A stretch of 37,303 nucleotides of DNA from assembly GCA_950059285.1 (NCBI GenBank), contig CATLTV010000031.1:1-37303 (forward strand). Direction: 5' to 3'. The translations under genes were made by a program, and so were the position numbers. The stretch comes from an uncultured Pseudomonadota bacterium (GTDB lineage Bacteria > Myxococcota_A > Bradymonadia > Bradymonadales > Bradymonadaceae). Below the pieces are notes generated by a model, which saw only the letters and a program-made list of their open reading frames with translations, did not search any database and was not told the origin of the DNA. Shown here one piece after another: positions 1 through 21,567 of this stretch; positions within the stretch are counted from its first letter, which is position 1; each line of letters begins with the position of its first letter.

Positions 1-2920
1 CGAGACCACGGGTGGGTTTGAGATGTCGCGACCCCCACTTCCTCGAAACAGAGGACTGAAACCAATATCGCTCTGTGTGCGAACAAGATCGCGCAATGTC
101 GCGACCCCCACTTCCTCGAAACAGAGGACTGAAACGTGAATATCCGTCACGCGTCATAACGTCTTCGATGTCGCGACCCCCACTTCCTCGAAACAGAGGA
201 CTGAAACCTCGACTAGTGCGATCACTTGCTCGATTGTGTATGGTCGCGACCCCCACTTCCTCGAAACAGAGGACTGAAACTAGGCATAAGCTATCTCTCT
301 TATACCCTCTCTAGGTCGCGACCCCCACTTCCTCGAAACAGAGGACTGAAACTTTGCGCCAAACGTCTCCACGATCTGGTATCTCTCGTCGCGACCCCCA
401 CTTCCTCGAAACAGAGGACTGAAACTTTCACTGTCTCACCTCATGTAGGGCTGAATCAGGTCGCGACCCCCACTTCCTCGAAACAGAGGACTGAAACCTG
501 ATGGGCCTTGACCCCTCACACATCCTTGACCACTGTCGCGACCCCCACTTCCTCGAAACAGAGGACTGAAACCTTGACTAAAAATATCACTAACTCTTTC
601 AAAAGTTGGTCGCGACCCCCACTTCCTCGAAACAGAGGACTGAAACCTTGTCGAGTTCGTCACAAAGTTGATCTGTAAGTTGTCGCGACCCCCACTTCCT
701 CGAAACAGAGGACTGAAACATCACCTTTACCAGAAAAACAAACCTTAAAGGTGAAGTCGCGACCCCCACTTCCTCGAAACAGAGGACTGAAACCTCGCTC
801 AATCAAAGCGAACCTATTGTTCTTAGTCGTCGCGACCCCCACTTCCTCGAAACAGAGGACTGAAACCATTCATGATAGCGTGGCCGAAGCCACAATAGTG
901 GTCGCGACCCCCACTTCCTCGAAACAGAGGACTGAAACTTTTGTAGCCCCATGAGGGCTTTGTCTTTTCTTGTCGCGACCCCCACTTCCTCGAAACAGAG
1001 GACTGAAACCTCCCAGATTGATGGAGACTTCAATAACCGCGTCGTCGCGACCCCCACTTCCTCGACACAGAGGACTGAAACGTCAATAAGTCCCATCACG
1101 AGGACTGCCTTGAGTGTCGTCGCGACCCCCACTTCCTCGAAACAGAGGACTGAAACTTCTTGGCGAAAAATGACTTAAAAGTCATTTTTCGTCGCGACCC
1201 CCACTTCCTCGAAACAGAGGACTGAAACGTCGACGATGAGCAAATGGTGTTCGACGATCTTGAATGTCGCGACCCCCACTTCCTCGAAACAGAGGACTGA
1301 AACAATACTGCTTCATCCTTAGTCCTCCTTCTCAGGGTGGTCGCGACCCCCACTTCCTCGAAACAGAGGACTGAAACATGCTTCGGGGTGTATCTGTTGC
1401 GTGTGTCGTGGATGTCGCGACCCCCACTTCCTCGAAACAGAGGACTGAAACGTCTGTCTGGGCGTGGGCGGCGGGGGGTAGTAGCGTCGCGACCCCCACT
1501 TCCTCGAAACAGAGGACTGAAACATAGAGTTCAAAGTACGAACTGTTCGCTGCCAATCATGTCGCGACCCCCACTTCCTCGAAACAGAGGACTGAAACTT
1601 CGATGTTTTTATCCTTTAACCCTCTCCTCTTTTTATGTCGCGACCCCCACTTCCTCGACACAGAGGACTGAAACACCTTGTCTTCCAGAATGAGGTTGCA
1701 GTTCATCAGTCGCGACCCCCACTTCCTCGAAACAGAGGACTGAAACATATCTCACCCTCCAGCACGTAGGGGGCGTTCTTGCGTCGCGACCCCCACTTCC
1801 TCGAAACAGAGGACTGAAACACTCCGAGCGTGGTGCCAGCACGCTCGAAGAAAGGTCGCGACCCCCACTTCCTCGACACAGAGGACTGAAACGGTTATTG
1901 GTTTTGTTATTGGATGGGTTATGGTCGGGTCGCGACGCCCACTTCCTCGACACAGAGGACTGAAACCTGGCTGTTCATTGATGCCGTAAGGCGTTTAGTT
2001 TGAGGTCGCGACCCCCACTTCCTCGACACAGAGGACTGAAACTGAAGCCAATCAAAATGATTGTAGAGGATCGCCAGTAAGTCGTGACGCCCACTTCCTC
2101 GACACAGAGGACTGAAATTCGTTATAGAGACCGTGGTGGTTGTACTCGCAAAGTCGCGACCCCCACTTCCTCGACACAGAGGACTGAAACTGGTCAACTT
2201 TAAGAGGAAAGCACTCTACAAAGGCGTCGCGACCCCCACTTCCTCGACACAGAGGACTGAAACTTATTCTCGCTCGCCTTGCAGAAGTGCAAGGCAAGAT
2301 TGTCGCGACCCCCACTTCCTCGACACAGAGGACTGAAACTCTGTTTTTTGCACATGAAATGATGTGATCATCAAGTCGCGACCCCCACTTCCTCGACACA
2401 GAGGACTGAAACACCTGCCGCAGAGTCGATTTTCTATGTACGCTCTGGGTCGCGACCCCCACTTCCTCGACACAGAGGACTGAAACATGTATTGTAGTGC
2501 TAGATTGCTGGCGTGTTCGAGTCGCGACCCCCACTTCCTCGACACAGAGGACTGAAACCGCCAAAGTTATTTCATGAGTTACAGGATGTTCGGTCGCGAC
2601 CCCCACTTCCTCGACACAGAGGACTGAAACACCTGTACGTTCTACAAGCCACTGATAAAGCTCCGGTCGCGACCCCCACTTCCTCGACACAGAGGACTGA
2701 AACTTTCTACGCTTTCTGTAATCTTCTTCAACACTCCGTCGCGACGCCCACTTCCTCGACACAGAGGACTGAAACGCGCTCTCCTTGTCGACCGTGATCC
2801 TGTGTGATGCGCCGCGACCCCCACTTCCTCGACACAGAGGACTGAAACATAATGAAGAATATATTATGCCACGTTTGCGTCTGTCGCGACCCCCACTTCC
2901 TCGACACAGAGGGTTGCAAA
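1..2920 (+). CRISPR. CRISPR array, 40 repeats of 38 nt, 39 complete spacers, truncated by window start
   Basis: The repeat begins GTCGCGACCCCCACTTCC, continues TCGA(A/C)ACAGAGG and ends with ACTGAAAC. Repeat starts run 25, 98, 170, 243 through 2738, 2811 and 2883, and spacers are 33-38 nt. The window opens inside a spacer, so more units lie to the left. Inside the repeat, TCCTC and GAGGA form a 5-bp stem around a 6-nt loop, and the last 8 nt match the usual type III 5' tag, so the crRNA direction is plus. Twenty-three repeats carry A in the loop. Repeat 15 (1044), repeat 23 (1637) and all from repeat 26 (1855) onward carry C. Repeats at 1929, 2081 and 2738 read GACGCCC; the one at 2811 begins GCCGCG. 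The last (2883) decays after GAGG. Degeneration at the right end marks it as leader-distal, putting the leader outside the window. Several spacers contain strong internal inverted repeats (see findings). Confidence 0.99.
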
Positions 2921-3180: not shown

Positions 3181-3213
3181 CCCCCTAACTTCCTCGACAT
3201 AGAGGACTGAAAC
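3181..3213 (+). repeat. Orphan degenerate CRISPR repeat
   Basis: The sequence matches the last ~31 nt of the array repeat, with TA inserted after CCCCC and one C-to-T change in the loop (GACATAGAGG). It keeps the 3' ACTGAAAC tag and the same orientation. It carries the leader-distal (C-type) loop form. It is 260 bp beyond the last array repeat, has no partner repeat downstream, and directly follows the leader-like element. Confidence 0.85.
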
Positions 3214-3248
3214 GTTTGCACTTCCTTCCTGTCACTCTAGCTCATATG

Positions 3249-4351: not shown

Positions 4352-4681
4352 ATGGTTGAACTTGTTCTCTCTACAGTCCTGAACTACCAATACAAGACCA
4401 CCCTCTCCGCCTACAAAAATTACCGTAAAGTGTGTCAAGAGACCGAGCAACTACTGGCCATGGAGCCCAACCTCCACAAGCTAGTCAAGCTCCACAGCGA
4501 AAAGCTCGAGGCGGAGCTGCGTCATAACTATGCGCTGCGCTCCGCAGTCACAAAGCTTTTGCCTGAGCTCCCCGCGCATGAGTTCCACCAGGCTCTAGAC
4601 ATGCTCACGGCACTGAAACATGAGACCGATTGCATGCTCTCTGGTGACAATGTGCTCCGTTTCTTGCTCTCTAATCAGTAA
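4352..4681 (+). CDS. Small helical hypothetical protein, 109 aa
   Basis: GGAG about 8 nt upstream supports ATG 4352. The protein is soluble-looking, rich in Leu, Glu, Lys and His, and predicted helical throughout (for example residues 24-60, with the heptad-like stretch LHKLVKLHSEKLEAEL). It has no signal peptide, Cys pair or catalytic motif that I can name. It lies 23 bp before the next small gene in the same direction, so the two are probably co-transcribed. Function unknown; a helical adaptor or partner of the next product is possible. Confidence 0.65.
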   Translation: MVELVLSTVLNYQYKTTLSAYKNYRKVCQETEQLLAMEPNLHKLVKLHSEKLEAELRHNYALRSAVTKLLPELPAHEFHQALDMLTALKHETDCMLSGDNVLRFLLSNQ

Positions 4682-10747: not shown

Positions 10748-12136
10748 TCAGGAGAGTTGTTCAAGCGTGGCCTTAAACTCAGCGAGGGCTTCGGTGATTT
10801 TCTTGGCTGTGCCAGTAACTTTGCCATGCTTATCTTTGTTACGTGCAAGAGGGCTATTCACTGTCCTGTCCATGTAGGCATGGTTGAGGTCGTTTCGAAC
10901 GGCCTTGATGGATGATGCAGCGCTCAGCAAAGAGGATGATGCCATGGCATTGACGAAGGTGCGGAGATATTCATACTGTGCATCAGAGAGCGTAATTTGT
11001 TCAACTTTTTGACCACTGAGAATAACCTGTTTGTTTTCATTAAATTCGTTCTTGGTGGCAGCCCCAATGATCTCATCACTCTCTTCGCGACTCTCAGTGT
11101 CTGTGACATGAGCGACCAGGGTACTAGTCCACTCGCTGGCCACGGTCAGAGCACTACTAATCATACCATTTTTTGTATACCATTCGATCAACCCGAGCTG
11201 CGCGCGCATGCCCTCGGTGGAGTCCCAGGGTTCCTTCGAAATCATGGGTTCGAGCTCCTCGCGAAGAATCTCCTTGAGAGGGAGGATGAACTTACCGAGC
11301 TGTTCGGTGACGGGGTTCCAGTCAGACAGGACATAGTTTTCATAAAGTGTGTTGGTGATGCTATCTGGCCCAATGAGCAGCGGGACGCAGTTATGTTGAA
11401 TGGCAGTGGACCAATCCTGTAGACGACCAGCAAAATTCTTGAGCTTGGGTATGGGCTTACCTGATTTAGAGCCTGGGCGACCTGATTTAAAATATTGATT
11501 TTGCTTCTCTTCAGCGAGTTTTGCCAGAGGTTCTGCATTCCCTGAACGTGCAAAGGCATCAAAGCCACTGGCCCAGCTGTTAAGTTCCCACAAAGTGCCA
11601 AGCTCAATCATCGGAGCAATATCAGAGCCTTCCTCACGAAGCTCCCAGGCACCGTACACGATGGATTCCACGATGAGCTTGCGTTTCAAGCTCCTGACAT
11701 AGTTCATGATCAACAAACCAAGCGCGGGGAGCGCACGGTAACCGTGTGTGAGGTCAAACACGATGTGTTCAGGACCCTTCTGAAGTTCCTCGGAGACCAG
11801 CTCAAACAGGTTATAGATGGCTTGTTGGTCCAGGCGATCAGGAATCTCAACGAGGTGAGGATCGGGCAGCTCACAGGCGCTGAACTCTTTCAAGAGCTCT
11901 TCACCATGTCTTTCTTGTGACGTGGGTGTGGCAAAGATGGTGACCTTCCCGAGGCGTTCACGAGGGATGCCATGAGCCACGGCGGTCTGAATGTAGGTGA
12001 CTTCACCAGACTGTTCACGAGTGTATAGATGGGCGCTCTCTTCGGGATAGCTGTAGGTACAAGGCTGGTATTTGCCTGTACCAAGGAAGGCGAACATGTG
12101 AATTTTTTCGGGACTCTGGTTCTTCTTTTGACTCAT
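10748..12136 (-). CDS. CARF-HEPN ribonuclease, Csx1/TM1812 family, type III CRISPR effector
   Basis: The N-terminal CARF (cyclic oligoadenylate sensing) domain shows the TM1812-family signatures FLGTGKY (residues 17-23) and FDLTHGYRALP (127-137). The C-terminal half is helical and carries RNDLNH (414-419), matching the HEPN active-site pattern R-x4-H. In this family, binding of cyclic oligoadenylate made by Cas10 switches on a nonspecific RNase. At 462 aa it has normal family length. AAGGAG 8 nt upstream supports ATG 12136. It is transcribed away from the cmr operon, 212 bp from a second CARF gene, and ends at a perfect 32-bp hairpin. Family placement is from motifs by eye; the nucleotide specificity (cA4 or cA6) cannot be read from the sequence. 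Confidence 0.9.
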   Translation of the reverse strand: MSQKKNQSPEKIHMFAFLGTGKYQPCTYSYPEESAHLYTREQSGEVTYIQTAVAHGIPRERLGKVTIFATPTSQERHGEELLKEFSACELPDPHLVEIPDRLDQQAIYNLFELVSEELQKGPEHIVFDLTHGYRALPALGLLIMNYVRSLKRKLIVESIVYGAWELREEGSDIAPMIELGTLWELNSWASGFDAFARSGNAEPLAKLAEEKQNQYFKSGRPGSKSGKPIPKLKNFAGRLQDWSTAIQHNCVPLLIGPDSITNTLYENYVLSDWNPVTEQLGKFILPLKEILREELEPMISKEPWDSTEGMRAQLGLIEWYTKNGMISSALTVASEWTSTLVAHVTDTESREESDEIIGAATKNEFNENKQVILSGQKVEQITLSDAQYEYLRTFVNAMASSSLLSAASSIKAVRNDLNHAYMDRTVNSPLARNKDKHGKVTGTAKKITEALAEFKATLEQLS

Positions 12137-12348: not shown

Positions 12349-13518
12349 ATGTCAAAGCAAAACCATTCTCACCTTGTTGTATCCACCTGTGGAACTAGCC
12401 TGCTTACAAATGACTGTAACCCAACCACAAAGAAGACGCTTCTTGAGTGTGCAAACATGTCGAAGAGTGAATTTATCAAGCAGGATACACATACGATTCG
12501 TATCATTGAGCATCACATCCAACAACGTGTACAGAAGCTGCTAGAGGCCGATGTTACCGAGGCCAAAAAGATGTGCGCCGAGTTAAACGGCATCCTGACC
12601 ACGATGGAGAGTGATGCGTTTGATGGTGGTTCCACACACCACACGCTGATCGCGACGGGTACCTACCTTGGAGGCAAGACAGCGTCGATGGTTCAACAAT
12701 GGCTCAAGAAGCAATACCCCATGGCAAACGTGATGGTTGAGCAGTTTGAGCGCTTGCAGACACGCGACGCCGACCTGTTTGGTGAAGCAGTCTCGGACAT
12801 CATCAAGTGGATCACAGAGACGCTTCCTGGCTACACCCAGGGTCAATACAAGGTGACGATGAACCTGACTGGAGGATTCAAGAGCGTGAATGGTGTCCTG
12901 CAAAGCCTCGGGTTGTTATATGCCGATGAAATCGTGTACCTGTTTGAGGGAGCAAGCCGCGAAGGTGACAACAGTAAATCCCTGATAAGAATACCAAAGT
13001 TGCCGTTCAGCATTGAGGTTGATGGTATTATCGAGGAGCACATCACACAGTTCAGGCTCATGGGTCAGTGCAATGAGCTTGTCCCAAAGTCAGCGCTTCT
13101 GAGAGTCCCCGAGATGTTGTTGATGCATGTAGACGATGGCCTTTACGGGCTCTCCTGGTGGGGAGAGGTGTTGTGGGCAGAGTTCAGGGAGCGTGAGTAT
13201 AATGTGCGTGTGCTGCCCTCCCCTCTCACTGGTGAGATTGTGTATGGTTCACGTTTCCTGAAGACATGCGATGGCTATCCCTCCAAGATGATCAAGCACA
13301 TCAATCAGACCCTCGACGACCTCGCTCGCCATGTGATTGAGAACGGGAAATACAACCCCAAATCGCTTGATGTGAAGAGCTTCAAGGGGAGCCCATCGGT
13401 CAACTCCACCCATGAGTGTGATGTGATCGAGAAGTTCAGGATCCTCTTTCACAAGGAGCGTAATGAGGATGGGAAGCTTGTCTATGTGCTTGATGAGTTC
13501 CACGAGGGTTATCATTAA
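12349..13518 (+). CDS. CARF protein with C-terminal RelE-like domain, probable type III CRISPR effector (Cami1-like)
   Basis: Residues 1-205 look like an APE2256-type CARF domain, with STCGTSLLT (12-20) as the first nucleotide-binding loop and NLTGGFKSV (172-180) as the second. A linker or winged-helix-like segment follows. Residues 295-389 fit the RelE/ParE toxin fold: EIVYGSRFLK as the first strand, a two-helix segment (311-332), then KSFKG (343-347), FRILFHKE (363-370) and a final VLDEFHEGYH. Lys343, Lys346, Arg364, His385 and Tyr388 sit where RelE toxins have basic and Tyr catalytic residues. CARF-RelE proteins (Cami1) are known type III effectors that cleave mRNA on ribosomes when cyclic oligoadenylate binds. 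The CARF call is strong; the RelE call is pattern-based. GGAG upstream supports ATG 12349. The gene precedes cas10 by 223 bp in the same direction. Confidence 0.8.
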   Translation: MSKQNHSHLVVSTCGTSLLTNDCNPTTKKTLLECANMSKSEFIKQDTHTIRIIEHHIQQRVQKLLEADVTEAKKMCAELNGILTTMESDAFDGGSTHHTLIATGTYLGGKTASMVQQWLKKQYPMANVMVEQFERLQTRDADLFGEAVSDIIKWITETLPGYTQGQYKVTMNLTGGFKSVNGVLQSLGLLYADEIVYLFEGASREGDNSKSLIRIPKLPFSIEVDGIIEEHITQFRLMGQCNELVPKSALLRVPEMLLMHVDDGLYGLSWWGEVLWAEFREREYNVRVLPSPLTGEIVYGSRFLKTCDGYPSKMIKHINQTLDDLARHVIENGKYNPKSLDVKSFKGSPSVNSTHECDVIEKFRILFHKERNEDGKLVYVLDEFHEGYH

Positions 13519-13741: not shown

Positions 13742-15808
13742 ATGTCGTCTTTTTACTCAATATTACTGGTGCATATTGGACCAGTTCAGGATTTTATTGC
13801 GTCAGCCCGACGATGTCGGGACCTGTGGTTTGGCTCACAGTTGCTGTCGAATGTATCGCGTGTAGCGGCTGAGGCCATGATCGAGCAGGCGAGCGTAAAA
13901 CAGGATGAAGCGCTGATCTTTCCTGGTGAGATCAATCGCGATAGTTCGGTGGCCAACAAGATCCAGCTCGTGTTGAACACACGCGATGACACCAAGTTAA
14001 GAGAGATCGCCGAGGCCGGGAGAACTGCGGTAGGTCAGTATCTTCGCGCTCAAGCAAAGGCTGTCTTTGATGAGATTCAACCCGAGAGAGAGGAGGACTT
14101 TGACCGTACTCGTGCCGAAGAGCAGATCGAATCGATGATGGAGTTTATGTGGGTAGCTCTCAAGTCCGAGCAGGATCTAAAGTCGGACGATGCCGCCTAC
14201 AGGAGCTTACGTCAGAAGGCCGAAGCGATGCTCGCTGCACGCAAGAACACACGTGACTGGTCACAGTATGCGATGGATGACGCGGGCATCCCCAAGTCAT
14301 CACTCGACGGCGTGCGTCCCTCGGTGATGGGCAGGAACACACGGTCTAATAATTACACGAGTTATCAGTTGTATGGTCATTTCAAGGCGAGGCCAGGTGA
14401 GCAGCTCTGTGGCGTAGGTTTGTTCAAGCGGTTGGGGGCGTTTGAGGGGCAAAATGTCAAGAAGCAGCGTAATGATGAACCCGTGTTTCACAGCACTTCA
14501 CATATTGCAGCACTACCACTATTCTGCCGACCCACATCGTTAACCGATTTTGATCAAGTACAGGTTAATTTTGTACGTGATATTGAGGTCCCTCTACTAC
14601 ATGAAAATCCGAATGGTTTTTTGATTCGTGTAGAGGAAGAGCTTACATCAGAATACACCTGTTGTGATCCTCGTTGTGAGAATTCTTTTCAAGGGCGCCG
14701 TGTGTTGGAGCATTATGACGCACGCAAGACGGGTGCAAACCTTGGTCTTGATGGGGTGTTACTGTTCCCTTCACGCATTGAAGCCAATGGGCCAAGTTCT
14801 GTACTTTCAATGGTGTCCGAAGATGACAACAAAAAAGAAGACATAAAAAAACAGATCCTTAACGCACAGCACACATTTTTCAAAGATTTCAATAAATGCA
14901 AAGGCACCAACATCCAGGAGCCGCTCGCTTATTATGCGCTCTTGCTCGCCGATGGTGACAAGATGGGCGTCGCGATTGATGCGCTAGGAAGCCTTGAAAA
15001 ACACAAAAATTTGAGCAAGATACTCGATCAGGAGTTTGCACAAAAATGCAAAAAGACCGTGAGTGATCTTGGCGGGACGCTGATTTATGCAGGCGGTGAT
15101 GATGTGCTCGCCATGTTACCGATGCACACCGCGTTGCAATGCGCTGAGGCGCTCAAGGATCTCTTCTCAGACGCGATGAATAACATCTTCGAGGGCACAA
15201 AGATTAAAAGTCCCACGCTGTCCGTGGGTCTGGCGATCGCACACCACCTTGAACCACTTGGTGAGGTGCGTGAGCTTGCCAAGCGCGCCGAAAAGCTCGC
15301 CAAAGTCTCGGGGCGTAACAGCCTCGCCATTGCGCTCGCCAAGCGCAGCCAGGAGCCCTTGCTCATCGTCGACTCCTGGGACCACAACCTTGCCAAGCGC
15401 ATCTACAAGTGGGCGCGCTTACTTGAGTTTGAAGATATACCAAACAGGTTGCCCTACAGGTTGCTTGATATGATTGCACCTCTTGAGGCAGATCTTGGAG
15501 GCACACACGACGATACAGAAGCGCTCCAAAAACTCTGCGCAAAGCTCGTCAAACAGGTGCTTGATCGACGCGCGCTGAAGAACGAGACGCTGGTCACGGA
15601 GCTTGAAGGTCTTTATCAGACAGCGGTTAAAATCCTTGGCAAGCAGGATGAAGCCTTCGCGCTCATCAAGGGCAAGAAGATGCCAAACGCCATCGCCGCC
15701 GTGCACTACATGTCAAGTGAGCTGCGCATCGCAGAGGAGTTTAACCGCGCCTACACCATGGCTTTTGGACATCTTGAGACATCCTCCGACACAGGAGAGA
15801 CACCATGA
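13742..15808 (+). CDS. cas10: Cas10/Cmr2, type III-B signature subunit and cyclic oligoadenylate synthase
   Basis: The protein opens directly with the Cmr2 signature IGPVQDFIASARRCRDLWFG (residues 12-31) and continues to palm-domain motifs LADGDKMG (402-409) and AGGDDVLAMLP (450-460). GGDD is intact, so cyclic oligoadenylate synthesis from ATP should be active. Cys307, Cys308 and Cys312 suggest the zinc site between the palms. At 688 aa it is shorter than Cmr2 proteins carrying an N-terminal HD domain, and I see no HD motif, so this Cas10 probably lacks ssDNase activity. GGAG upstream supports ATG 13742. It is the first gene of the cmr operon; its stop overlaps the cmr3 start by 4 nt. The two neighbouring CARF proteins are the expected receivers of its signal. 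Confidence 0.97.
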   Translation: MSSFYSILLVHIGPVQDFIASARRCRDLWFGSQLLSNVSRVAAEAMIEQASVKQDEALIFPGEINRDSSVANKIQLVLNTRDDTKLREIAEAGRTAVGQYLRAQAKAVFDEIQPEREEDFDRTRAEEQIESMMEFMWVALKSEQDLKSDDAAYRSLRQKAEAMLAARKNTRDWSQYAMDDAGIPKSSLDGVRPSVMGRNTRSNNYTSYQLYGHFKARPGEQLCGVGLFKRLGAFEGQNVKKQRNDEPVFHSTSHIAALPLFCRPTSLTDFDQVQVNFVRDIEVPLLHENPNGFLIRVEEELTSEYTCCDPRCENSFQGRRVLEHYDARKTGANLGLDGVLLFPSRIEANGPSSVLSMVSEDDNKKEDIKKQILNAQHTFFKDFNKCKGTNIQEPLAYYALLLADGDKMGVAIDALGSLEKHKNLSKILDQEFAQKCKKTVSDLGGTLIYAGGDDVLAMLPMHTALQCAEALKDLFSDAMNNIFEGTKIKSPTLSVGLAIAHHLEPLGEVRELAKRAEKLAKVSGRNSLAIALAKRSQEPLLIVDSWDHNLAKRIYKWARLLEFEDIPNRLPYRLLDMIAPLEADLGGTHDDTEALQKLCAKLVKQVLDRRALKNETLVTELEGLYQTAVKILGKQDEAFALIKGKKMPNAIAAVHYMSSELRIAEEFNRAYTMAFGHLETSSDTGETP

Positions 15809-16926
15809 ACCCATCATCAGGAACACACACCATGCACACATGGATCATCAAACCTCATGACACGATCATGTTCCGTGACGCTCGTCCGTTTGAGGCTGGC
15901 GCGAGCGCACGATCGATGCCCATGCCCTGGCCGTCCACGCTGGCAGGCATGATTCGTTCACGCTTTGGACGAGACAGGACAGGCACCTTTACACTCAACA
16001 CAAAAACTGCCCGAGCAATCGCAGTGCGCGGTCCATGGGTCGTCGAACTCAATGAACAAGGAGAGGTCTGTCAGCACTACTTCCCTGCACCCGCCGATGC
16101 GGTGATGTTCAAGAATAAAAACGTACTCACGCTGCGCAGATTATCGCCAAAGGAGCTCGACTCGGATGTCCTCAGCGACCTTCCCGAGGGGCTACGTCCT
16201 GTCGGATTTGACACAGATCCTGGGGAGAATCCAGGCAAGCCCACACAGGGCGCAGCGCTCTGGTCTTTGGAGAAGTACATGGCATGGATGGGCACGCCAG
16301 AATCAATTCAAAATATTGAAAGTATTGACAAAATTGGTATTTCAAGCTTCAACCAAATCGCGCGCGTACATGTGCAGATTGATCCCAAAACAGGGACCGC
16401 ACTTGAGGGGCATCTGTTCCAGACGAGCATGTTGGAGACCACACGTTACAAGGCCAATGAAGGCTACCGTGAGTTCGCGTTCGCGATGATGGTTGATGAT
16501 GACAAGGGGCAGCGCGTGGATGATGACGGCCCCGATGTGATGGGCGGTGAACGCCGCATTGTACACGTCAGGGAGTCCAAAAAGCTTGAATGGAAGGCTC
16601 CCGAGGTGAAGGGTCAGATCGTGCGTGTGGTGTTATTGACACCAGGCATTTTCGAGGAGGGTTACAAGCCTTCAAAGATTGATGGCGCGCGTGTGATCGC
16701 AGCGTCAGTGAAGCGTCCTCAAACCATCAGCGGCTGGGATCTTGAGAAGAGCCAGCCCAAGGCCACACGACAGATGGCCCCCGCAGGGAGCGTGTACTGG
16801 CTGGAAGTAGAAGGTGACGCACAACAGTGGGTCAACACCCATCACCTGAGCTCTATTTGTGACAATGAACAGGATCGACGAGATGGCTTTGGCCTGATCG
16901 CCGTTGGTCAAGGAGGCATACGATGA
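15805..16926 (+). CDS. cmr3: Cmr3, crRNA 5'-tag-binding subunit of the type III-B complex
   Basis: The N-terminus contains the Cmr3 hallmark MFRDARPFEAG, followed by the RAMP-type region MPWPSTLAGMIRSRFG. In known Cmr complexes Cmr3 sits beside Cas10 at the base and holds the 8-nt 5' tag of crRNA. The start at 15805 overlaps the cas10 stop (ATGA) and has AGGAGA upstream. An internal ATG at 15832 also has an AGGA and would give MHTWIIKPHD, closer to typical Cmr3 N-termini, so the true start is uncertain by 9 residues. A Gly-rich segment near the C-terminus (GFGLIAVGQGG) matches the RAMP glycine loop. It overlaps cmr1 by 4 nt. Confidence 0.95.
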   Translation: MNPSSGTHTMHTWIIKPHDTIMFRDARPFEAGASARSMPMPWPSTLAGMIRSRFGRDRTGTFTLNTKTARAIAVRGPWVVELNEQGEVCQHYFPAPADAVMFKNKNVLTLRRLSPKELDSDVLSDLPEGLRPVGFDTDPGENPGKPTQGAALWSLEKYMAWMGTPESIQNIESIDKIGISSFNQIARVHVQIDPKTGTALEGHLFQTSMLETTRYKANEGYREFAFAMMVDDDKGQRVDDDGPDVMGGERRIVHVRESKKLEWKAPEVKGQIVRVVLLTPGIFEEGYKPSKIDGARVIAASVKRPQTISGWDLEKSQPKATRQMAPAGSVYWLEVEGDAQQWVNTHHLSSICDNEQDRRDGFGLIAVGQGGIR

Positions 16927-18122
16927 AAACTTTAAAAACAGCCCCCAAAATCTCACGCGACGACCTCAAGGAAGATTTTTTTAGTCTGGAGGTCAGCGTG
17001 AAGTTCCTCACCTACGTGTTTGGCGGCGGTGTTGAAAACAATACAGATAACAAAGTTGACCATAAAAACAAGTCAATGAAGCCTTTTGATCCTGTTACAC
17101 CAGTACGCGCATCTTCTGTGCGAGGACAGCTACGTTACTGGTGGCGAGCAACAACAGGAGCACGCTGTCAGTCCCTTGAGGAAATGAGAGCGCGAGAAAT
17201 CGCTTTGTGGGGAGGATTAACACCTGATGGCTCAACACCAAGCAGTGTACGTGTTCAAATCAAAATCACATCAGACATCAAAGAGCCTAAGGGTGTTGAG
17301 GTCGACTTTTATAAGGTCCCAAGCTATGCAGCATTTCCGCTAGACATCTCCAATAATAAAAATGCTGAAGTATGGGACTATTCGGATATAAAGTTTGATC
17401 TTGTTTTGAGGTTACAAAAATCACCAGACATTTCTGAAGTTGGGTATGAGACGCAAAAACAAGAGCTACAGCTGGCGTTGTCCGCCTGGCTCACGTTTGG
17501 AGGTTATGGGGGACGTTTGAGTCGTGGTTTTGGTGCCGTTGCATTGGCTGATTCTTATAATGATATCACCGATGATCCTGATAATCTTCTAAAGAGAATA
17601 GAGGCTTTGGGTAATGTAAAACTATCCTCTGTCCCTGCTATTTCTCATGATCAAAACAGACTGAAGTTAAAAGCTTATAAAGACAGCTTTACTGCCTGGA
17701 ACGAAGGTATTAATAAATTGAAAAGTTTTAGAACTACGCCCCCCCAACTAAAACTAGGCATTAAAAAGTGGCTAGAGGGCAATCATATTCGTACAATATA
17801 TAAGAACAATGATGGCAATCATAGTGCCCAGTTCTCCTTTCCACGTGCGCACTTTGGACTCCCTATTAATTATCAAAAGATAATGTCCAAACAATATGAG
17901 TTGACACTTGTAGATGCTACAAGACTGCCTTCAGCTGTCATATTAAGACCATCATCAAAAAATCATGCAATGGCCTTATGGCTGGAAGGCCTTGAACCTG
18001 ATAACTCACTAATATTAAAAGAAAATAATAAAAAATCATTTAAAGTGACATCAAATCTGAACAACGACCCTCACTACACTCGAAAATTTAATATCATTGA
18101 AGAGTTTCTCGAAAACTTCTAA
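16923..18122 (+). CDS. cmr1: Cmr1, RAMP subunit at the crRNA 3' end of the type III-B complex
   Basis: SSVRGQLRYWWRATTGA (residues 64-80) is the Cmr1 signature, and YGGRLSRGFGAV in the middle is a RAMP glycine-rich loop. At 399 aa it is within the family range. In known complexes Cmr1 caps the head with Cmr6 and contacts the crRNA 3' region and target RNA. Its start overlaps the cmr3 stop by 4 nt; the stop is 15 bp before the cmr4 start. The second half is AT-richer and Asn/Lys-rich compared with cas10, hinting at mixed ancestry or relaxed codon choice within the operon. Confidence 0.95.
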   Translation: MKTLKTAPKISRDDLKEDFFSLEVSVKFLTYVFGGGVENNTDNKVDHKNKSMKPFDPVTPVRASSVRGQLRYWWRATTGARCQSLEEMRAREIALWGGLTPDGSTPSSVRVQIKITSDIKEPKGVEVDFYKVPSYAAFPLDISNNKNAEVWDYSDIKFDLVLRLQKSPDISEVGYETQKQELQLALSAWLTFGGYGGRLSRGFGAVALADSYNDITDDPDNLLKRIEALGNVKLSSVPAISHDQNRLKLKAYKDSFTAWNEGINKLKSFRTTPPQLKLGIKKWLEGNHIRTIYKNNDGNHSAQFSFPRAHFGLPINYQKIMSKQYELTLVDATRLPSAVILRPSSKNHAMALWLEGLEPDNSLILKENNKKSFKVTSNLNNDPHYTRKFNIIEEFLENF

Positions 18123-18137
18123 TAATTGGAGACCGTT

Positions 18138-19028
18138 ATGACAATATCAAAGCTACTATTCATTCGTTGTTTGAGCCCTCTACACGCAGGGACCGGTCAA
18201 GGCGTTGGCGCTGTGGATCTTCCCATTACACGTGAAGTGACCACACACTTACCCTATCTTCCAGGCTCTTCCATCAAGGGTTCGTTACGTGCCGCATCTT
18301 CAGCACAGGAAACACAGGAACTGACAAAAACTATGTTTGGTCCAGACACTGAGAATGCATCTGAACGTGCAGGATCTCTTGTGTTTAGTGATGCTCGCCT
18401 TGTATGTCTTCCTGTACGTTCTGTGTATGGTACATTTGCATGGGCAACCTCACCCCTTCTTATTCAACGATTGTTGAGAGATGTAAAAGAGGTTCAAGGT
18501 GTAACCATCAACGCAGACCTGAAGGCCTTGAACAAGGTGTCCACAACAACAGCAAGGATCTCTATCTCTGATCCATCCAGTCTGAAAGACGACAAGGACA
18601 TGATCTATCTTGAGGATCTGGATCTTAGAGCAGAGAAATGCAAAAACACTGGCAACCTCGCCAAACAGCTTGGGGAGCTTTTGTTTGATGATGAAACCGA
18701 GAGGGAGATGTTCGAGAAGCGCTTTATCGTCTTGCATGATGATGTGTTGACGTTTTTATCCAAGCACGCTGTGGACATTCGCACACGTACAAGCATTAAT
18801 CCTGAAACCAAGGTTGTGAAGAACGGTCAACTCTGGACTGAAGAAAATCTTCCTACAGAATCTATCCTGGCAGCGTTGGTGCTTGAACACGGTCACCTTG
18901 CCCACAAAACAGACCAAGACGTATGGGCAGGACTGGCGAGGTTGTGCGACAGCTCAATTCAGTTTGGTGGACATGCAACAACTGGGCATGGACGCTGCGA
19001 AGTGATCATCAAGGGAGGTAAATCATGA
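18138..19028 (+). CDS. cmr4: Cmr4, target-RNA-cleaving backbone subunit, 296 aa
   Basis: The frame opens at an in-frame TTG (18126), but TGGAG at 18127-18131 is well spaced for ATG 18138, so I start there. The N-terminus LFIRCLSPLHAGTGQGVGAV then D27-LPITRE is the Cmr4 signature; Asp27 corresponds to the residue that cleaves target RNA at 6-nt intervals in characterised Cmr complexes. YLPGSSIKGSLR and the C-terminal FGGHATTGHGRCEV are RAMP features. Several copies of this subunit form the filament along the crRNA. It overlaps cmr5 by 4 nt. Confidence 0.96.
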   Translation: MTISKLLFIRCLSPLHAGTGQGVGAVDLPITREVTTHLPYLPGSSIKGSLRAASSAQETQELTKTMFGPDTENASERAGSLVFSDARLVCLPVRSVYGTFAWATSPLLIQRLLRDVKEVQGVTINADLKALNKVSTTTARISISDPSSLKDDKDMIYLEDLDLRAEKCKNTGNLAKQLGELLFDDETEREMFEKRFIVLHDDVLTFLSKHAVDIRTRTSINPETKVVKNGQLWTEENLPTESILAALVLEHGHLAHKTDQDVWAGLARLCDSSIQFGGHATTGHGRCEVIIKGGKS

Positions 19029-19408
19029 AACAACACGACATGGCTCAGCGCGCACTCATTGCTGTTGAGCAGATGAAAAATGAGGGTGAGCTCAACGGCA
19101 AATTTAAAACATTATGCATGAAGTCCCCATCAGTTTTAATTCGGAGTGGATTGGCCCAAAGCATCACCTATTTACGCTCTCGTAATGACACAAACAATAA
19201 CAATAAATATGGCGACACATACCTGGAACATTTGATTGATGTATTGGGAAGAAAAAATACATCTGTAGCCAAATTTCAGGACGTTGTACTTGAGGCAAAA
19301 ATTGGAGAATACATGGCTCTGACACACTCAGTTCAAGATGCCATGATCTGGTTGCGTCGATTTGCTCAGGTTGAGATGGCTAATGTTGAAGAAGATAGTG
19401 AGGGCTAA
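19025..19408 (+). CDS. cmr5: Cmr5, small helical subunit of the type III-B complex
   Basis: A 127-aa all-helical protein starting MKQHDMAQRALIAVEQM, typical of Cmr5 (the Cas11-like small subunit). LIRSGLAQSITYLRS is the conserved family core. In known complexes Cmr5 copies form the second filament and help position target RNA. The start overlaps the cmr4 stop (ATGA) and the gene ends 3 nt before cmr6. Confidence 0.93.
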   Translation: MKQHDMAQRALIAVEQMKNEGELNGKFKTLCMKSPSVLIRSGLAQSITYLRSRNDTNNNNKYGDTYLEHLIDVLGRKNTSVAKFQDVVLEAKIGEYMALTHSVQDAMIWLRRFAQVEMANVEEDSEG

Positions 19409-19411
19409 TTT

Positions 19412-20557
19412 ATGACCAGTAAAGCAAGACGTGACTGTTTACATGACGTAAACCCATTCAAACGTAAAAAGACAACACATATTGGCCTGTGGATGGATCG
19501 ATATCTTGAACATCAGACCAATATCATAGCTAACGATAACGGTAAAAACGCAACTCAAAAGCTGTTCTCAGAGATATCTGATAGAAGTAGGAACAGTATT
19601 CCAGATGGTTATGAACGTGCGTTCAAACGTCGAAAGGAATCCTTTTTTAATGACATTTTGGGAGAAAATAACACAACCTATGTACTGCAAGACTTTGAAG
19701 CAACTGGAAGATTAGTTGTTGGTTTTGGTGACTCGGGTGTGCTTGAAAATGGATTGGCATTGGAACACACATGGGGAGTTCCCATCCTTCCAGGTCCATC
19801 TCTAAAAGGAGTCGCAGCAGCTGCAGCACATCACCTTTTACCTGACCCTAAAGAGTCAACAGAGTCAACAGAATCAAAAAAATCAACATGGTCAAAAACT
19901 GCAGGTTCAAAAGATGTAGAAGATCCTACATATGCCGAGATTTTGTTTGGTTTTGAGCAAATGGCAGGGCTCGTAACCTTTCATGATGCATGGTGGGTTC
20001 CTGATGAAGACAATTGGCCCATCCACTCTGATATCCTGACTGTACACAATCAGAGCTATTACGATGCAGTTCAAGGTACTATACCACCACCCAAAGGTAC
20101 TGAAGATCCAACACCAGTACAGTTTGTATCCTCATCAGGTAAGTACTTGGTCGCACTCTCAGCATCTCAAGAAGCAGCTGATCTTGGATGGCTAGAAGCT
20201 GCCATGGAGATTCTCACAATTGGCCTTACTAAGCTTGGTATTGGGGCAAAAACAAGTGCTGGATATGGCTATCTGCAACCCGTAGAGAATCCTGATAATG
20301 ATATTGCCAAGCATCAAAAAGAGTCTGCTAAACAATCAGATATGTGTATGGAGCTTGAGCAGTGGTTTGATTCAAACTCATCATTAAGTGCCACACAAAA
20401 ATACAGAGAGCTAAAGGACAGCGATTGGATTCTCAAGCTTGAAAGTGAACCTGAGTCGGTACAGTGGGCTGCCTGGGACATTATTTCTAACTATATCAAG
20501 AAGAACAAAAAAACGAAGGTCTGGCTTGATGATGTCCAGACGAAATTAAAGCCATGA
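19412..20557 (+). CDS. cmr6: Cmr6, RAMP subunit at the head of the type III-B complex
   Basis: The central motif GRLVVGFGDSGVLENGLALE followed by WGVPILPGPSLKGV is diagnostic of Cmr6, and LGIGAKTSAGYGY is the C-terminal glycine-rich loop. The start ATG 19412 has GAGG upstream and is 3 nt after the cmr5 stop. A Ser/Thr/Lys-rich low-complexity insert (KESTESTESKKSTWSK, near residues 148-165) interrupts the RAMP domain and probably forms a surface loop. Cmr6 pairs with Cmr1 at the crRNA 3' end. The stop overlaps the cas6 start by 4 nt. Confidence 0.94.
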   Translation: MTSKARRDCLHDVNPFKRKKTTHIGLWMDRYLEHQTNIIANDNGKNATQKLFSEISDRSRNSIPDGYERAFKRRKESFFNDILGENNTTYVLQDFEATGRLVVGFGDSGVLENGLALEHTWGVPILPGPSLKGVAAAAAHHLLPDPKESTESTESKKSTWSKTAGSKDVEDPTYAEILFGFEQMAGLVTFHDAWWVPDEDNWPIHSDILTVHNQSYYDAVQGTIPPPKGTEDPTPVQFVSSSGKYLVALSASQEAADLGWLEAAMEILTIGLTKLGIGAKTSAGYGYLQPVENPDNDIAKHQKESAKQSDMCMELEQWFDSNSSLSATQKYRELKDSDWILKLESEPESVQWAAWDIISNYIKKNKKTKVWLDDVQTKLKP

Positions 20558-21567
20558 ATCAACAGGATACATCCATCACGCTCCCCTACATCAAACTTGA
20601 TGTGACCATGGGAGCGCTTGAGCTTGTCCAGCTTCCTCCCTATGCAGGGAGCACTCTACGTGGGGCGTTATCAGCCGCGACCAAGAGTGTGACCTGTATG
20701 GGGAAGCAATCTCGTGGCTGTACACAGAGCTGTCAGCTGCCTCATGAGTGTTTTTATGGCAACCTCTTTGAAACACCACATACACTATCCACGCCTTCGC
20801 GAGTGCGCTCGTCGAAATATTCTCCACATCCTGTGTTGATTACACCTCCAGAGGATGGTGGTTTGTTGTATCCTGGTGATACGTTGTCATTTTCGGTGAC
20901 ACTCTTTGGTCAGGCACGTCATCATGTGCCGCGACTGGTGGCGTCACTGGCGAGGATGGCTCAGCTTGGGATAGGGAAAAACCGTGGCAAACTTGGCTTG
21001 AAGAGTGTTTCAGACCATTATTCAAAGAAGACTGTATGGTGTCAGGAAGAGCCTGACACCCTGAACACTGCACCGTTGTCACCTTCCACGATCCTGCTTG
21101 AGCAGGAACCCAAAGTTATTGAAGAAAAAGACAAAAACCTTCAAGACATGAAGATTCGCTTGTTCCTGGAGACGCCCTTATTGATTAAATACAAAGGGAA
21201 ATCCTACCACGATTTTGAACTTCCTGTGTTTGTGCAAGCTGTGGTGGACCGCATGGTACTCATGGCAAGCTGTCATGGAACAGCGCCTTCCTATGAACAA
21301 ATACGTGGCCTGACTGACTGCTGGTATAGCTTTACACAGGAGCTCGATGTAGAGGTCTTACAGACGCGTACCACATTAATGAGCACAAGTCGCTTCTCGG
21401 GTCGGCAGCAACGCAAACATGACCTGCAAGGTATTCGTGGATTTGTAGATATAAGCGGTAATATCGCCCCACTACTCCCCATGTTGGATATGGCGCGCGT
21501 CACACATGTGGGTAAAAAAATCGCATTTGGTTTTGGGCAGATAGACTATCTGATCAAAGCCACCTGA
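20554..21567 (+). CDS. cas6: Cas6 endoribonuclease, pre-crRNA processing (type III-associated, Cys-rich form)
   Basis: At 337 aa this fits the Cas6 family linked to type III loci. It has a RAMP fold start (LPPYAGSTLRGAL), a Cys cluster (Cys48, Cys56, Cys60, Cys66) ending ECFYGNLFE that is typical of the group, a glycine loop LGIGKNRGKLG and the C-terminal GKKIAFGFGQIDY. It should cut each array repeat at the base of the TCCTC/GAGGA hairpin, releasing crRNAs with the ACUGAAAC tag. It overlaps cmr6 by 4 nt and is the last gene of the operon, followed 19 bp later by an 11-bp hairpin. A catalytic His is not certain from sequence alone. Confidence 0.93.
   Translation: MNQQDTSITLPYIKLDVTMGALELVQLPPYAGSTLRGALSAATKSVTCMGKQSRGCTQSCQLPHECFYGNLFETPHTLSTPSRVRSSKYSPHPVLITPPEDGGLLYPGDTLSFSVTLFGQARHHVPRLVASLARMAQLGIGKNRGKLGLKSVSDHYSKKTVWCQEEPDTLNTAPLSPSTILLEQEPKVIEEKDKNLQDMKIRLFLETPLLIKYKGKSYHDFELPVFVQAVVDRMVLMASCHGTAPSYEQIRGLTDCWYSFTQELDVEVLQTRTTLMSTSRFSGRQQRKHDLQGIRGFVDISGNIAPLLPMLDMARVTHVGKKIAFGFGQIDYLIKAT

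Follow-up and report, generated by a model that had tools for sequence, protein, structure and literature searches.

Hairpin-forming spacers exceed chance expectation in one type III-B CRISPR array of an uncultured bacterium

Type III-B CRISPR systems can carry RT-Cas1, and the RT-Cas1 type III-B system of Marinomonas mediterranea reportedly acquires its spacers from RNA. Hairpin-forming DNA is reportedly a favoured source in type III-A adaptation without a reverse transcriptase (RT): in S. thermophilus (Zhang et al. 2021) and S. epidermidis (Aviram et al. 2022), spacers are taken preferentially from origins rich in hairpins, from oriT, from the terminators of riboswitches, and from rRNA and tRNA genes (reviewed in PMC9048733). 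The window analysed here, a 37,303-nucleotide stretch of DNA from an uncultured bacterium (contig C31 of its genome), opens with a CRISPR array and carries type III-B genes further along:

25..2920, forward strand: CRISPR array of 40 repeats of 38 nt (GTCGCGACCCCCACTTCCTCGAAACAGAGGACTGAAAC and variants) with 39 complete spacers of 33-38 nt
3181..3218, forward strand: orphan degenerate repeat, about 260 nt downstream of the array end
10748..12136, reverse strand: CRISPR-associated DxTHG/TM1812-family protein (TIGR02221 at 72.9 bits, just below cut-off; TIGR02549 above cut-off)
12349..13518, forward strand: Cas_APE2256-family protein (PF09651)
13742..15808, forward strand: Cas10/Cmr2 (type III-B), with YAGGDD in the palm domain by alignment
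15805..16926, forward strand: Cmr3
16923..18122, forward strand: RAMP protein, Cmr1 by position
18126..19028, forward strand: RAMP protein, Cmr4 by position
19025..19408, forward strand: Cmr5
19412..20557, forward strand: RAMP protein, Cmr6 by position
20554..21567, forward strand: Cas6

The type III-B assignment follows from a Cas10/Cmr2 with a GGDD palm, which matches TIGR02577 at 179.5 bits in a profile search (above cut-off), together with Cmr3, Cmr5, three RAMP proteins and Cas6 at 15805-21567. Judged by their families, the proteins at 10748..12136 and 12349..13518 are both likely CARF accessory proteins. The contig start cuts into the array, which runs on past position 1. Since the repeats end in GACTGAAAC and the terminal repeat at the trailer end (2883-2920) is degenerate, the array is probably transcribed from left to right, with its leader beyond the contig start. 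An Rfam search of the window gave zero matches.

The initial annotation held that the spacers carry far too many strong inverted repeats, naming four with arms of at least 8 bp and several with weaker stems. Counting perfect inverted repeats with a loop of at least 3, we find all four among the 39 complete spacers. These and two further spacers of interest are as follows:

720..755, forward strand: spacer 10, 9-bp perfect inverted repeat TCACCTTTA/TAAAGGTGA around an A-rich 16-nt loop, without a T run; DNA z -3.2
939..971, forward strand: spacer 13, 5-bp hairpin AGCCC-CATGA-GGGCT, then TTTGTCTTTTC
1157..1190, forward strand: spacer 16, 11-bp perfect hairpin GAAAAATGACT-TAAA-AGTCATTTTTC; DNA z -5.3
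1821..1854, forward strand: spacer 25, 8-bp perfect hairpin CGAGCGTG/CACGCTCG with a 7-nt loop, without a T run; DNA z -4.7
1967..2004, forward strand: spacer 27, sharing 17 nt exactly (TGATGCCGTAAGGCGTT) with the type I-G repeat of the same genome and 20 nt exactly (CATTGATGCCGTAAGGCGTT) with a solitary repeat in phage contig L253
2264..2301, forward strand: spacer 31, 8-bp perfect hairpin GCCTTGCA-GAAG-TGCAAGGC, without a T run; DNA z -3.7

Folded as DNA strands, the four strong hairpins have z-scores of -3.2 to -5.3. The stem of spacer 16, given earlier as 12 bp, reaches that length only when the count takes in the inner T-A or the adjoining base of the repeat; its palindrome extends to the repeat border, and the stem is flanked by A5/T5. 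Three of the four weaker stems were as described (5 bp at 867-900, 5 bp at 939-971 and 6 bp at 2043-2080), but spacer 27 has just 3 perfect pairs, or 5 with one G-T. The four strong hairpins are dispersed over the array (spacers 10, 16, 25 and 31) and therefore reflect separate acquisitions.

Four such spacers exceed chance. Dinucleotide shuffles give an expectation of 0.11 spacers with arms of at least 8 bp (the initial hand estimate was about 0.1), and none of 300 shuffled sets reaches four. Hairpins are commoner in real DNA than in shuffles: such arms occur in 0.6-0.7% of 36-mers of host DNA (0.23-0.28 expected per 39), and the phage figures are 0.97% for Mx8 and 0.60% for lambda, which for host and phage DNA together gives 0.23-0.38 expected. 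Other natural spacers make the fairest comparison: among 70 other arrays fetched via cas10, cas7 or cas1, 18 of 1529 spacers have arms this long. The pooled natural rate of 1.25% (82 other arrays) corresponds to about 0.49 in 39 spacers, so that a fair expectation, from host and phage DNA or natural spacers, is 2-5 times the hand estimate. The window array still has about eight times the rate of other natural arrays (p=0.0014 against the pooled rate; Fisher 0.002 against all other surveyed arrays), and its probability as an outlier is about 0.044 once the 83 examined arrays are allowed for. The hairpins are thus real and modestly surprising, and the survey sets a base rate of about 1% for natural spacers with arms of at least 8 bp, which can be used for judging similar claims.

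Folding against shuffled controls, the check proposed in the initial annotation, bore out that the window spacers are more structured, with a mean energy of -5.54 compared with -4.21 kcal/mol (Wilcoxon p=0.004). When the four hairpin spacers are removed, the values are -4.75 and -4.13 (p=0.036); the folding effect is mainly that of these four outliers.

The excess is local to the window array. A second array of the same genome, on contig C46, has a near-identical repeat of the same family, and none of its 50 regular spacers has arms of at least 8 bp; its folding energy, -4.78, compares with -4.76 in shuffles. The type I arrays of the genome likewise have none in 95 (I-G on contig C67, 0/76; I-E on contig C41, 0/19). 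Pooling the window array with that on C46 gives 4/89 (p=0.025). Separately, the C46 array contains an irregular unit (L009:6102-6209) with a 22-bp perfect palindrome continuing into the next repeat, followed by a spacer duplicated from 4562-4596, which resembles the product of template switching or of faulty assembly.

Beyond this genome, the survey does not support long hairpins as a trait common to type III arrays. A handful of early Myxococcota loci had hinted at type III enrichment, and long-hairpin spacers do occur in further Myxococcota arrays whose repeats are type III-like (2/11 in L180 of genome G066; 2/20 and 0/15 in L033 and L181 of G089; 1/4 in L179 of G216). A general enrichment was rejected on two counts. 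Across 80 Cas10 loci from many phyla, arms of at least 8 bp were found in 0 of 348 spacers. In the total survey outside the window, 38 other cas10-linked arrays have 6/481 and type I arrays 8/942, which is no difference, in classes defined approximately by repeat sequence and by whether cas10 lies on the same stretch, about 20 kb long at most; the type I count takes in a class ending TTGAAGC near Cas4-Cas1 fusions, and the C46 array, with no cas10 in its stretch, is counted as 'other'.

Type III spacers are nonetheless slightly more structured overall. Strand-neutral folding energy minus the shuffled mean is -0.58 kcal/mol for type III outside the window and -0.26 kcal/mol for type I, a contrast of -0.31 kcal/mol (array-level permutation p=0.014) that was first found in exploratory data. 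Its direction is that expected from RT-free type III adaptation as reported. Taken by itself, the held-out Chloroflexota set gives a weaker result than the exploratory contrast, with a folding excess of -0.38 whose interval, -0.85 to 0.08, includes zero (background -0.23), and arms of at least 8 bp in 3/157 spacers compared with 0.46% in the background.

The genome has three cas1 loci: a Cas4-Cas1 fusion beside the I-G array on C67, one beside the array with an I-E-type repeat on C41, and a stand-alone cas1-cas2-cas4 on contig C14, where a cas1 encoding 364 aa is followed by cas2 and cas4. Contig C14 terminates 507 nt past cas4, within sequence that agrees with the C46 leader in 103 of 105 nt (counted by eye). 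Because C14 ends in this C46-type leader sequence, the order across the C14-C31 junction is probably cas1-cas2-cas4, leader, window array and III-B genes. An 18-bp perfect inverted repeat, GCAAAAAACTGTACCACA/TGTGGTACAGTTTTTTGC, is common to both leaders (L038:8050-8120 and L009:2490-2600) and is a possible protein-binding or anchoring site. Immediately upstream of cas1-cas2-cas4 lies a gene for a 995-aa SNF2-type helicase (L038:2370-5357, on C14 of the same genome, G000), DrmD-like at 329.5 bits, below cut-off.

A search of the genome, about 95% complete, for RVT_1 (PF00078) gave no match, and no RT is fused to or beside cas1. Given this and the C46 leader sequence at the end of the cas1-cas2-cas4 contig, RNA capture by RT-Cas1 is unlikely and RT-free adaptation is strongly indicated, with cas1-cas2-cas4 as the probable module of the window array; the earlier suggestion of acquisition from structured RNA is not supported. 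The closest Cas1 relative (L171, 39% identity) adjoins an array with hairpins in 0/25 spacers. In another relative locus, L188 (contig C19 of genome G064), an open frame of about 986 aa combines RT (YADD) with Cas1, and 1 of the 37 spacers of its array has a hairpin; the frame is probably a Cas6-RT-Cas1 fusion, its RT judged by the YADD motif.

Searches for the donors covered all 39 spacers against INPHARED phages, PLSDB plasmids, the genome itself and 193 further genomes of the phylum. They yielded no full protospacer; six exact hairpin cores also had no match in IMG/VR. Host DNA was rejected as the source, the own genome having given self matches only. The intrinsic-terminator rule (a G+C stem followed by a T run) applies to only one of the listed hairpin spacers, at 939-971, while spacer 16 could be an A/T-rich bidirectional terminator. 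Capture from structured elements, as originally proposed, is plausible, with an experimental precedent in RT-free type III systems (PMC9048733) and a structured viral element matched by spacer 27, but terminators as its common source are not supported.

Spacer 27 resembles a CRISPR repeat of another type. It has 21 ungapped matches to the I-G repeat, beyond chance given a best of 20 in 200 shuffled sets. A relaxed I-G-like pattern found three phage contigs in IMG/VR. L253, a 10.4-kb tailed-phage contig with minor tail protein, head closure and tail completion genes, has a single I-G-like repeat at about 2031-2057 (region 2020-2066) between two open reading frames; L254 (3450-3640) and L255 (385-560) each have, close to genes for terminase and portal, a mini-array of three I-G-like repeats. 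The 20 nt common to spacer 27 and L253 include flank letters absent from the host repeat. Its likeness to the I-G repeat and these 20 shared nucleotides make an I-G-like repeat of a virus the probable source of spacer 27. Solitary viral repeats act as RNA anti-CRISPRs (Racrs) in other types, in a report whose main text makes no mention of I-G (PMC10651486). One could go further and propose that III-B memory is biased to structured phage nucleic-acid elements, including viral CRISPR-repeat mimics, and that spacer 27 would direct III-B attack on phages carrying an anti-I-G repeat mimic, a proposal we regard as unlikely. The lead suggests that a mimic which a virus directs against one CRISPR type may be remembered by a different type.

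Our best reading, with a probability of roughly 0.45, is an ordinary type III-B array in which a weak structure bias of type III adaptation combined with a lucky small-sample draw. The array would most likely be fed by the RT-free Cas1-Cas2-Cas4 module, and four, or at most eight, of its spacers would derive from short inverted repeats of DNA whose donors were presumably invaders. Type III adaptation may weakly favour DNA able to fold single-stranded, such as displaced coding strands, replication intermediates or regulatory hairpins; we infer the same bias for the window's own Cas1-Cas2, and a small-sample draw would have enlarged it here. In the published model the stem of a hairpin acts as the double-stranded prespacer, which alone leaves unexplained why a single spacer should hold both arms of an 8-11 bp stem. 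In favour of bias plus draw are the count itself (0.11-0.5 expected for four found), the separate acquisitions, the missing RVT_1, the C14/C46 leader match, the type III folding contrast and the published type III-A precedent; against it stand the C46 array, free of long hairpins and folding at shuffle level, the equal rates in cas10-linked and type I arrays, and the Chloroflexota interval. At most, the pattern is a mild form of an effect already reported for type III.

This reading ranks ahead of sampling fluctuation alone, in which a structure-blind draw from natural 36-mers, about 1% of which are such hairpins, happened to give the window array four. That is somewhat unlikely: the pooled p of 0.025 for the two arrays and an outlier probability of 0.044, reckoned before the free choice of feature is counted, suit it, but the Fisher value of 0.002 and the structure of the milder window spacers (p=0.036) do not. 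The bias could instead lie in the source, had there been frequent encounters with particular phages or plasmids whose DNA abounds in functional hairpins, such as origins, packaging signals and mimics of CRISPR repeats. We consider this decidedly unlikely: the match of spacer 27 to the repeat in L253 speaks for it, the failure of the phage, plasmid and genome searches and of the six hairpin cores to find a full protospacer against it. An origin in transcription terminators or the ends of transcripts, with capture or selection owing to the RNA targeting of type III, is improbable: spacer 13 and the A5/T5-flanked stem of spacer 16 would fit, whereas three of the four strong hairpins (spacers 10, 25 and 31) lack T runs and the array has 3 terminator-like sites where shuffles have 3.2.

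Alternatively, the spacers could have been acquired with imperfect hairpins that were later repaired to perfect palindromes through template switching inside the array. The irregular C46 unit and the abutment of the spacer 16 palindrome on the repeat border are compatible with this, but the other three hairpins are internal to their spacers and there is one clear case in about 90 units, making such an origin highly improbable. Reverse transcription of structured RNA by RT-Cas1 is largely refuted; its occurrence in type III-B systems and the fusion-like frame of L188 speak for it, and the RVT_1-free genome and cas1-cas2-cas4 adaptation module against it.

Compared with described systems, the window shares its type III-B effector genes with the RT-Cas1 system of Marinomonas mediterranea, but its genome has no detected RT and no sign of an RNA origin of spacers. 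As with viral solitary repeat units and Racrs (PMC10651486), spacer 27 is like an I-G repeat and has 20 nt in common with an isolated repeat of a phage contig; here, however, the sequence is a spacer in a type III-B array, and the Racr function of the L253 repeat is putative. The RT-free type III-A systems of S. thermophilus and S. epidermidis (PMC9048733) resemble the window in an RT-free Cas1-Cas2 (for the window array, the probable module), in spacers of about 36 nt and in an apparent enrichment of hairpin-forming DNA. The window differs in being a III-B system with Cas4, in its natural array, in the restriction of the effect to one of two arrays and in the whole short hairpin held inside a spacer. 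If the bias is real, it would help to identify the DNA that such systems sample, and the array would be a natural footprint, in III-B with Cas4, of a structure preference so far reported in III-A acquisition experiments.
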